From: Corallococcus soli
GTDB lineage: Bacteria; Myxococcota; Myxococcia; Myxococcales; Myxococcaceae
DNA: 64,000 nt
Direction: 5' to 3'
NCBI RefSeq assembly: GCF_014930455.1
Contig: NZ_JAAIYO010000005.1
Span: forward strand, 1 to 64,000
Part shown: one piece after another, positions 21,691 to 60,109 of the stretch
Layout of the letters: every line of letters starts with the position of its first letter
Numbering within the stretch: the first letter of the stretch is position 1
Translations under genes and position numbers: made by a program
The notes under the pieces: generated by a model
What the model saw: the letters and a program-made list of their open reading frames with translations, nothing else
What the model was told of the DNA's origin: nothing
The model's database searches: none

Positions 21691-21996
21691 TCAGACGTGG
21701 GATGTCCCTGGAATCAGCGCCAGGGGGAACGTCTGGGTCGGGATTTCCCCGTGAAACTGCGCGTCCGCGTCCACCAGCGGCCCCGCGTCGTCGCGCAGGA
21801 GGACATCCCCCTGGAGCACCCGCTTCACGGCGGACAGGGGCACTTCCTTCCAGCGCCGGTTGAAGGGCGAGCGCCGGACGTAGAGGTGCTCCTGGCCGAT
21901 GAGGGCCACGTACCCCAGCAGCTTCCCGTCCGAAGCGCGCACGTGCATGCCGCTGATGATGGAGCGCCGTTCGAACGGCGTGTCGTCGAAGGCCAT
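21691..21996 (-). CDS. Small hypothetical protein, PRC-barrel/DUF2171-like
   Basis: A 101-residue soluble protein with a strong ribosome site (GGGGAGGTGACG before the ATG). It reads as a small beta barrel: an opening SIISGMHVRASDGKLLGYVALI, then HLYVRRSPFNRRWKEVPLSAV and VLLRDDAGPLVDADAQFH. The pattern of a VRASDGKLLG entry followed by a basic residue-rich strand and a final acidic turn resembles DUF2171/PRC-barrel proteins, which bind RNA or membranes in characterised cases. The match is by eye only. It lies between dapD and the SelW-like gene, all on the minus strand. Confidence 0.6.
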   Translation of the reverse strand: MAFDDTPFERRSIISGMHVRASDGKLLGYVALIGQEHLYVRRSPFNRRWKEVPLSAVKRVLQGDVLLRDDAGPLVDADAQFHGEIPTQTFPLALIPGTSHV

Positions 21997-22101: not shown

Positions 22102-22338
22102 CTAGGGCCCCACGGCCCTGGCCACGGCGTCCACCACCTCCTGCTCGGTGGGGAAGGCAAGCCCCGTCTTGCGGATGACGACCCGTCCGTTCACGGCGAT
22201 CTCAAAGCTGCCCGACGGGCCCTTCTTCAGCTCCGACTCCAACTCCAGCTCATCCTTCAGCGCGGCCGCCGCACGGGCAGCCCTGGGGGCATAGCCTCAA
22301 GCGCTGCAGTAGGTGATGGTCACCGTCGTCTGGGACAC
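22102..22338 (-). CDS. SelW/Rdx-family protein with in-frame TGA (probable selenoprotein)
   Basis: Reading from GTG at 22338 to TAG at 22102 gives 79 codons, interrupted only by a TGA at 22299-22297 (codon 14). Around it the sequence is TVTITYCSA-TGA-GYAPRA, which is the thioredoxin-like CxxU redox motif of selenoprotein W (Rdx family), with TGA exactly where selenocysteine belongs. The rest matches the family: a helix RAARAAAALKDELE, strand SFEIAVNGRVVI, then TGLAFPTEQEVVDAV. AGGAGG lies 6 bases before the GTG. If TGA is read as selenocysteine the product is a 78-residue redox protein. Alternatives are a sequencing error in a Cys (TGC) homologue, or a dead gene. No sel genes are visible in this window. 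Confidence 0.75.
22268..22290 (-). promoter_or_regulatory. Possible SECIS-like hairpin downstream of the TGA codon
   Basis: Starting seven bases after the TGA, on the coding strand, GCC and GGC can close a stem. Inside, GGG-CTG-CCC forms a tight apical hairpin with a U in its three-base loop. Bacterial SECIS elements lie immediately downstream of the UGA, as this does. The helix is short and irregular and has not been folded computationally. Confidence 0.35.
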
Positions 22339-22472
22339 GGAGGGCCTCCTGGCGTTTCGGGGGCGCGGAGCGCGCACGCCCGGTACCCCCTTGGATTAAT
22401 CCTCGCCGGGCCCGGGCACCAGCCCCTCCACGGTTTCCCCGTCGCGCCGCCACCCGCTAGCTTGCGCACGCC

Positions 22473-23921
22473 ATGACGACCCCGCTGGAAGCCGCCTACG
22501 CCCCGGATGCCTTCCGGACCACCGCCCACGCCCTGATGGACCAGCTCGCGGACTACCTGAAGGCCGCGCTGAAGGGGGGCGACATGCCGGTGCTGCCCTG
22601 GGCGCCGCCCTCGGTGAACCAGGAGCGCTTCGCCACGCCCTTCCCGGAGGAGCCCTCCGCGGAGCCAGCCGGCGCCTTCGCGCACCTGATGGCGCGCGTG
22701 CTGGAGGGCTCCCACCACCTGCACCACCCGCGCTACGTGGGCCACCAGGTGACGGCGCCGCTGCCCCTGGCGGCCCTGTGCGACGGCGTGTCGTCGCTGC
22801 TCAACAACGGCATGGCCGTGTACGAGATGGGCCCCATCGCCACCGCGATGGAGCACCACGTCCTCGCGTGGATGGCGTCCCGGCTGGGCCTGCCCGACAC
22901 CACGCGCGGCGTGCTCACCTCCGGCGGCAGCGCGGGCAACCTCACCGCGCTGCTCGCGGCGCGGCAGGCGAAGGCCGGCTTCGATGCGTGGAACGGCGGC
23001 GCGCACGCGGGCCCGCCCCTGACGGTGCTGGTCCCCCGCTCCGCGCACTACTGCCTGGCCCGCGCGGTGCGCATCATGGGCTGGGGCGAGGGCGGCCTCA
23101 CCCCGGTGGACGTGGACGCCTCCTTCCGCGTGCGGCCGGACGCGCTGGAGGGCGCGCTCCAGGGGGCGCTGCGCCAGGGACGCAAGCCCATCGCGGTGGT
23201 GGCCAGCGCGGGCTCCACCGCCACCGGCGCCTTCGACCCGCTGGAGCCCGTGGCGGACTTCGCCCGGGAGCACGACCTGTGGTTCCACGTGGACGGCGCG
23301 CACGGGGCCGCCGCCAGCCTGAGCGCGAAGTACCGCGCGCGGGTGAAGGGCATTGAACGGGCGGACTCCGTGGTGTGGGACGCGCACAAGGGCCTGCTGA
23401 TGCCGGCGCTGGTGACGGCCGTGCTCTTCCGCGACGGGGCGCGCTCCTTCGACGCCTTCTCCCAGGAGGCCCACTACCTCTTCCACGTCGACGACGCGCG
23501 CCCCTTCAGCGACGTGGGCCTGCGCACCCTGGAGTGCACCAAGGAGATGATGGCCCTCAAGCTGTACACCTGCCTGTCCGTGCTGGGCACGCGCCTCTTC
23601 GAGGAGGCCGTCACCGCGTCCTACGACCAGGCCCAGGCATTCGCGGGGATGCTGACGGCCGCCCCCGACTTCCAGTTGGCGCTGCCGCCCGACTGCAACA
23701 TCGTCTGCTTCCGCCACACGCCCGCGCACGTCCCCCCGGAGGACTGGGACGCGCTCCAGGTCCGCCTGCGGGAGGCGCTCGTCACCTCGGGAAAATTCTA
23801 CCTGGTGCAGACGCGGCTACCGGACGGGGTGTACCTGCGCACCACCCTCATCCACCCGCTCACCCGGGACGCGGACCTGGAGGCCCTCCTGGAGACCCTC
23901 CGGGGGGCGGCGAAACCCTGA
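22473..23921 (+). CDS. Pyridoxal-dependent amino acid decarboxylase (group II)
   Basis: A 482-residue fold-type I PLP enzyme. The Schiff-base lysine is K306 in WDAHKGLLMP, the PLP ring is stacked by the HVDGAHG segment (272-278), and STATGAFDP (248-256) is typical of aromatic-L-amino-acid, glutamate and diaminobutyrate decarboxylases. The N-terminal swap domain (1-90, ending HHPRYVGHQ) resembles the L-2,4-diaminobutyrate and tyrosine decarboxylase branch. It removes the alpha-carboxyl of an amino acid to give an amine; the substrate cannot be chosen from sequence alone. It is followed 56 bp later by a glycosyltransferase, apparently unrelated. Cytoplasmic. Confidence 0.88.
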   Translation: MTTPLEAAYAPDAFRTTAHALMDQLADYLKAALKGGDMPVLPWAPPSVNQERFATPFPEEPSAEPAGAFAHLMARVLEGSHHLHHPRYVGHQVTAPLPLAALCDGVSSLLNNGMAVYEMGPIATAMEHHVLAWMASRLGLPDTTRGVLTSGGSAGNLTALLAARQAKAGFDAWNGGAHAGPPLTVLVPRSAHYCLARAVRIMGWGEGGLTPVDVDASFRVRPDALEGALQGALRQGRKPIAVVASAGSTATGAFDPLEPVADFAREHDLWFHVDGAHGAAASLSAKYRARVKGIERADSVVWDAHKGLLMPALVTAVLFRDGARSFDAFSQEAHYLFHVDDARPFSDVGLRTLECTKEMMALKLYTCLSVLGTRLFEEAVTASYDQAQAFAGMLTAAPDFQLALPPDCNIVCFRHTPAHVPPEDWDALQVRLREALVTSGKFYLVQTRLPDGVYLRTTLIHPLTRDADLEALLETLRGAAKP

Positions 23922-59245: not shown

Positions 59246-60109
59246 TCAGTCCGTGTCGCTGTTGGAATACAGGGACACCCACACCGGCGCGTGGTCCGAC
59301 AGCCGGGTGACGTAGTCCTTCATGTTCGCGATGTAGTCGCGGCCCGTGCTGGAGAACTCCGTCACGTAGGTGTCCTGCCACCAGAAGTGGTCATACGCAT
59401 TGGCGAAACCCCCGGTCGAATTGATGGTGGTGGGCGTGTCCAGCTTGCACGTCACCGCGGGCGACACCGCCTTCAACTCGCTCCACGCCGCATGGGTGCA
59501 GGCCATGTTGTGGTCGCCCAGCAGGATGACGTCCTGGTCGGTGCCGCTCGCGGCCTGCACCGACGCGAACACCGCGTCGATGGCCTGCGCCTCCAACTTG
59601 CGGTCCGCCGCCACGCCCCACACCGTGTGCCAGTTGAGGAACGTGTAGTCCGCGCCCGTGGGGACGTGCCGCACCTTCACCACCTGCGGCTCCCGCTCGA
59701 ACAGGTCCCCCGCGTCGCTCCACACCGTGGAGGACAGCAGCGACACCGTGTCCGTCCGGTACAGCACCGCGTACGACTCCTTGTAGGACGAACGCCCGAT
59801 GAGCGGCGTCACCACCGCCGTCCACGCCACGCCCGACACCTGCGTCAGGTTCTGCGCGATGGCCTGCGCCGCCGCCGCGTTCATCACCTCCTGGAGGAAC
59901 ACCAGGTCACAGCCGTTGTTCGCCGTGCTGCCCGAACCGAACTGGCTCCAGAGCTGCCGCGCGTCATCCAGGTAGGTCTGCTCCGCCGCCCACCCTTCGT
60001 GGCGGAGGTTCCAGCTCACCACCCGCAGGTAGGAGCCTGCCTGCGACAACGCGGGGAGCATCAGCACGGTCAACACCAGCACACGCGACAAGAAGGACGA
60101 CCCTCTCAT
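59246..60109 (-). CDS. Secreted endonuclease/exonuclease/phosphatase family protein (DNase I-like)
   Basis: A 287-residue exported protein. The ATG at 60109 follows GAGGTG and starts a signal peptide (RVLVLTVLMLPALSQAG). The mature enzyme has the EEP fold: VVSWNLRHEG (N34), the acidic FLQEVMNAA, IILLGDHNMA (GD-x-N motif) and the C-terminal SDHAPVW (D-H pair). These fix metal and the catalytic His. Substrates of this fold include DNA, RNA, phosphoinositides and sphingomyelin. Secretion by a predatory bacterium suits DNA or lipid breakdown outside the cell. Co-transcribed with the beta-rich gene at 57530. Confidence 0.85.
   Translation of the reverse strand: MRGSSFLSRVLVLTVLMLPALSQAGSYLRVVSWNLRHEGWAAEQTYLDDARQLWSQFGSGSTANNGCDLVFLQEVMNAAAAQAIAQNLTQVSGVAWTAVVTPLIGRSSYKESYAVLYRTDTVSLLSSTVWSDAGDLFEREPQVVKVRHVPTGADYTFLNWHTVWGVAADRKLEAQAIDAVFASVQAASGTDQDVILLGDHNMACTHAAWSELKAVSPAVTCKLDTPTTINSTGGFANAYDHFWWQDTYVTEFSSTGRDYIANMKDYVTRLSDHAPVWVSLYSNSDTD

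Follow-up and report, generated by a model that had tools for sequence, protein, structure and literature searches.

Computational evidence for a SelW-like selenoprotein gene with an in-frame UGA in Corallococcus soli and its myxobacterial relatives

We describe a gene that is almost certainly a genuine selenoprotein gene, of the SelW-like type, in a stretch of 64,000 nucleotides of Corallococcus soli (contig NZ_JAAIYO010000005.1, positions 1 to 64,000), which we call the window. Computation supports the gene, the selenocysteine (Sec) machinery, the conservation of the UGA, a constraint at the RNA level, and the predicted fold. We are very confident that this is a functional gene for a SelW-like selenoprotein, in which the UGA of codon 14 would be read as Sec by means of a downstream hairpin.

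The mechanism that we propose is as follows. Ribosomes would start at the GTG at 22338. At the UGA of codon 14, SelB with Sec-tRNA-Sec would recognize a hairpin 18-36 nt downstream through the G-U of its loop, a selenocysteine would be inserted, and translation would then end at the TAG. We infer both the insertion of Sec and the contact with SelB from the comparisons presented below. The features are, in window coordinates:

22102..22338, minus strand: selW-like (Rdx family) selenoprotein gene, 78 codons plus a TAG stop, GTG start
22297..22299, minus strand: in-frame UGA at codon 14, in the C-S-A-U motif, presumed to be read as Sec
22345..22350, minus strand: Shine-Dalgarno AGGAGG, 6 nt before the GTG at 22338-22336, as seen in the sequence
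22264..22282, minus strand: putative SECIS apical hairpin, +18 to +36 (the U of UGA being 1), with a 7-bp stem
22275-22271, minus strand: hairpin loop CGUGC, starting at +25

The gene and the selenocysteine machinery

Translated from the minus strand with TGA as U, the gene gives VSQTTVTITYCSAUGYAPRAARAAAALKDELELESELKKGPSGSFEIAVNGRVVIRKTGLAFPTEQEVVDAVARAVGP and then the stop, with the motif C11-S-A-U14 in the context Y-C-S-A-U-G-Y. The plus-strand translation of 22102-22338 is not the SelW protein. The earlier note on this DNA, which had proposed here a hidden SelW-like gene with a TGA in its CxxU motif, had the coordinates right and left the minus strand unstated. Its description of the locus is otherwise borne out: codon 14 is the single in-frame TGA of an otherwise intact frame of 78 residues and a TAG; the AGGAGG ahead of the GTG start is present at 22350-22345, six bases upstream; and the frame, which gene callers were expected to miss, is absent from the standard-code list of open reading frames of the window (at least 60 aa). 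The identification of the gene itself is confirmed by a domain match that crosses the TGA and by orthologues that all carry it.

The sole Pfam match is Rdx (PF10262), which covers residues 5-73 and spans the TGA (E 2.5e-12, 47.3 bits for a cut-off of 22.6). The segments before and after the TGA thus form one domain and, judging from the sequence, the selW frame is not a chance frame. TIGR02174 (CXXU_selWTH) matches with 46.6 bits for a cut-off of 34.2, so that both models score above their curated cut-offs and place the protein in the Rdx / SelW-like family. The top-scoring NCBIfam model is NF041051 (SelTWH_Campy); its 61.8 bits are below the cut-off of 88, and the protein falls outside that equivalog.

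A real Sec codon demands selA, selB, selC, and selD, as the earlier note pointed out, and all four are found in the genome from which the window comes (G000; 9.44 Mb, 68 contigs, 99.99% complete), where they lie on four separate contigs. In a profile search of the genome, the selA match has 561 bits, the selB match 316 bits with the entire model covered, and the selD match 390 bits, with no internal stop and no UGA. The selC gene scores 70.5 bits, and ARAGORN calls it as tRNA-SeC with anticodon TCA. One tRNA-Ser also exceeds the Rfam tRNA-Sec cut-off (47.6 bits), and the true Sec gene is distinct from it both by score and by the ARAGORN call.

Conservation of the UGA and distribution of the machinery

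A search of 96 genomes of the myxobacterial family, using a query with Cys at codon 14 that therefore favored Cys copies, reports a SelW orthologue in 74 of them. The 74 best matches contain a single internal stop apiece, always a TGA and always at codon 14; on the question of whether relatives have TGA or TGC at this codon, the answer is TGA. A separate search with the protein lists at least 10 named relatives (Corallococcus, Myxococcus, and Myxococcaceae MAGs), and the best identity among those listed is 86-88%, for three Corallococcus strains. A profile was also searched against 195 phylum genomes; this search, which scored at most 29 candidates per genome and may miss distant copies, finds a match in 98: 97 with TGA (93 codons read directly, and those of G114, G118, G120, and G125 taken from the stop count in the search table) and one, in G151, with Cys. 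The matching genomes outside the family number 24, of which the 20 that were read comprise 19 with TGA and the one with Cys. A weak second match, of 22.3 bits, occurs in G080.

One explanation for the TGA is that the gene is a pseudogene with a true nonsense mutation, or that the base was misread from a TGC. Nothing beyond the TGA itself speaks for this. A sequencing error is very unlikely when all 74 family orthologues, from separate assemblies, have the TGA, as do 97 of the 98 phylum genomes with a match, and the protein is conserved downstream of it. We give this explanation practically no weight. The pattern is instead that of a bacterial selenoprotein, an in-frame UGA conserved at a redox position that aligns with Cys (in G151 and in a second copy in G045).

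In bacteria, Sec insertion competes with termination. One could thus propose that the UGA is mainly a regulatory switch, with a 13-residue peptide as the main product, rare Sec readthrough, and expression controlled by selenium status. But when seven diverse members are compared, 20 of the 24 invariant columns come after residue 14, and the conservation of the protein past the UGA makes the full protein a selected product. A regulatory switch is therefore highly improbable as the main role of this UGA.

Could the UGA be read by a near-cognate ordinary tRNA or under a reassigned code, and not by the Sec system? The inserted residue is itself deduced, and one draft genome, G083 (87% complete), has a TGA copy with neither selA nor tRNA-Sec found, both of which leave some room for this idea. 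Termination argues against it. The real stop of 73 parsed orthologues is TGA in 44, TAG in 26, and TAA in 2, and one runs off its contig (the parse missed one orthologue by its motif; the codon-14 reading and the codon randomization below took all 74), so many of these genes also use UGA to terminate. The distribution of selA argues against it as well. A selA match above cut-off is present in 88 of the 96 family genomes and in 150 of the 195 phylum genomes, and by SelW form it is present in 94 of the 97 genomes with a TGA-SelW versus 56 of the 98 others (Fisher p 6e-12, treating as independent genomes that are not). For the family alone, the numbers are 72 of 74 with SelW versus 16 of 22 without (p 0.0016). 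And in G151, where neither a selA match nor a tRNA-Sec above cut-off occurs, the only SelW copy (L138, G151:C109:27652-28270) has Cys, in C-A-P-C, and a normal TAA end. Considering also the full Sec system of the C. soli genome and the constraint on hairpin and loop, we find near-cognate reading or reassignment exceedingly improbable, and reading as Sec the explanation that we retain.

The TGA carriers without a selA match are three: G009 (80% complete, has selC), G106 (92% complete, has selC), and G083. The G083 copy (L100, G083:C23:1414-1929), in a genome with no tRNA-Sec above cut-off either, is an exception that may reflect missing data or be a relic. The genome G035, in two contigs, has neither selA nor tRNA-Sec above cut-off, and no SelW. 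In G045, the locus L098 (G045:C44:127370-128562) is a tandem SelW pair, in which the Sec codon reads TGA in the first copy and TGC in the second; this genome has selA and tRNA-Sec despite its second, Cys copy, which is possibly a Sec-to-Cys duplicate.

SelA also exists in the family without SelW. In 16 of the 96 family genomes (G017, G022, G024, G029, G014, G015, G031-G034, G036-G038, G043, G049, and G088) there is a selA match and no SelW match, and 15 of the 16, all except G088, have a tRNA-Sec above 60 bits. It follows that selW is dispensable, and that the family should have other selenoproteins as well; another one is probably present in these 16 genomes. It is not an FdhA with TGA at the level searched (TIGR01591, E <= 1e-100), as none of the 16 has such a match, the family total being six genomes of 96 with an FdhA match that has one internal TGA.

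This bears on whether SelW is the only selenoprotein of the C. soli genome, for which the whole Sec apparatus would be kept. Consistent with that, FdhA (same model and threshold) is not found in this genome, SelD has no UGA, and UGSC (PF24696) has no match in it, in a search that had no match in any control either and hence no positive control. Yet the relatives that keep selA without SelW argue for further selenoproteins, and we think it unlikely that SelW is alone. Scanned for codon bias in a simple way, the window and four stretches of 20 kb surrounding the sel genes give 12 TGA-interrupted candidates, and only SelW has a CxxU. For the candidate at minus-strand position 59246 of the window, the third codon past the TGA is a Met, and its TGA resembles an ordinary stop with a following start next to it.

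The hairpin downstream of the UGA

The proposed stem pairs positions +18-24 with +30-36. The earlier note had suggested folding the bases after the TGA in search of a SECIS. Comparative evidence supports a SECIS there, and folding energy does not. The energy of the 60 nt after the UGA is unremarkable (z 0.34, with as good a fold in 126 of 200 shuffles), and the natural hairpins of the orthologues are weaker than codon-randomized ones (-14.1 vs -15.2 kcal/mol). We thus dropped folding energy as evidence for the SECIS, and used comparative and synonymous-codon tests instead.

In a randomization that preserves the protein, with codons redrawn from the usage of five window genes, the number of stem pairs kept is on average 6.80 out of 7 for 54 distinct natural sequences, versus 5.26 for the randomized ones (sd 0.12, with a maximum of 5.61 in 1000). 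The covariation test used 54 distinct 45-nt segments from the 74 orthologues, which are related sequences: 97.1% of the cells pair versus 94.2 in shuffles, and 14 cells are doubly changed where shuffles give 3.2 (none of 500 gets to 14), these being located at two pairs of codon-third positions. Shifting the partner by 1-3 columns makes the pairing fall to 24-72%. Two of the five covariation measures are not above the shuffles: double-change pairs (2 vs 1.7) and further pair types (6 vs 5.7), with 352 of 500 for each.

The loop is also constrained. The loop codon in 65 distinct sequences is CGT in 56, CGG in 9, and CGC in none; in the five window genes, the Arg codons (n=184) include 108 CGC and 9 CGT. 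Of the 93 genes read, 82 have GT and 11 have GG at loop positions 26-27, and the encoded residue varies among Arg, Gly, and Ser. The alignments therefore support a hairpin that synonymous changes, and some compensatory ones, leave intact, and we read it as a putative SECIS. It has what characterizes a bacterial SECIS, a hairpin after the UGA with a guanosine in a small apical loop, as established by comparison, the energy not being discriminating.

In E. coli, SelB contacts the loop of the fdhF hairpin. The fdhF SECIS (NC_000913, b4079) is likewise a short hairpin after the UGA. Its loop GGUC, from +22, is shared by 7 of the 19 SelW genes read outside the family; the loop here is CGUGC, from +25.

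Fold, neighborhood, and relation to known selenoproteins

An AlphaFold2 model built with 11 aligned sequences has a mean pLDDT of 88.4 and the order E-H-E-E-E-H. It predicts the thioredoxin-like fold of the Rdx class, with the C-x-x-U by the first beta strand. When the model is searched against PDB structures, 22 chains have E <= 0.001, all from 3DEX, 2OJL, 2FA8, 2OKA, 2OBK, 2P0G, and 2LJK, and mouse SelW (2NPB) comes next with E 3e-3. In the portion of PMC3527542 used here, those seven entries are SelW-related or hypothetical bacterial proteins grouped with MIEN1, and MIEN1 has a CxxC in the same fold, with a measured redox potential of -225 mV. MIEN1 (2LJK), SAV_2001 (3DEX), and mouse SelW share the predicted fold with the C-x-x-C/U aligned, at 26-38% identity to the present protein in structural alignments; the position of the Sec is taken by a Cys in MIEN1 and SAV_2001. 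From the SelW-like predicted fold and the redox potential of MIEN1, the best proposal, which we consider most probable, is by analogy a selenol/thiol redox role for SelW, with a presumed physiological partner.

The genes next to selW give no functional clue, and we report them as context only:

21691..21996, minus strand: downstream gene for a 101-aa hypothetical protein, with no Pfam family at E 0.001
22473..23921, plus strand: divergent gene for a PLP-dependent decarboxylase (Pyridoxal_deC)

Across 40 loci, which include that of the window, perhaps some genomes twice, and flanks of unequal length, the decarboxylase is near selW in 31, the 101-aa gene in 17, and a DapD-like gene in 15. At five loci of a second group of the same genus (L028, L030, L031, L034, and L051), all three are unmatched within the flanks compared; in that group, selW sits elsewhere.

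SelW-like proteins are among the commonest known bacterial selenoprotein families, and this gene is an added member of that well-known type. As given in excerpts of the respective papers, bacterial SelW-like selenoproteins have been described at least since 2005, with the Sargasso Sea (PMC1088965); they are among the most widespread selenoproteins in GOS, with 427 sequences (PMC2398784); and in organisms that contain Sec, Cys homologues of them are very scarce or absent (PMC1794560). The gene shares with those (same excerpts) the Rdx/SelW domain, the CxxU, the in-frame UGA, a bacterial SECIS, and the scarcity of Cys homologues, and differs in being a myxobacterial member; we find no mechanistic difference. 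The excerpted part of PMC4607533 describes SelW in epsilonproteobacteria, for which NF041051 is the model, likewise with a UGA and a hairpin with an invariant loop G, and reports that annotation had overlooked SelW genes, in particular, altogether.

As for myxobacteria, an excerpt of PMC1794560 lists Anaeromyxobacter without SelW, and the word Myxococc- is absent from that paper; the main text of PMC5029168 mentions neither SelW nor Myxococc-. In the open-licence PMC literature on selenoproteins of Myxococcales, Myxococcota, or Myxococcus xanthus, we find no paper on a myxobacterial SelW as judged by title and start of abstract. This analysis adds a Sec form that is near-exclusive across the myxobacterial family, a SECIS with comparative support, and the Cys form where Sec machinery is undetected.

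We have then a conserved gene, present in 74 of the 96 family genomes and with relatives in another 23 phylum genomes; genes of this kind escape standard ORF calling (a standard-code list, at least 60 aa). The draft genome G083 does not fit the natural comparison that the phylum offers, between the 97 genomes with Sec (94 of them with selA) and G151, which has Cys and in which Sec machinery is not found. With that comparison, the group is a place to test the function of bacterial SelW.
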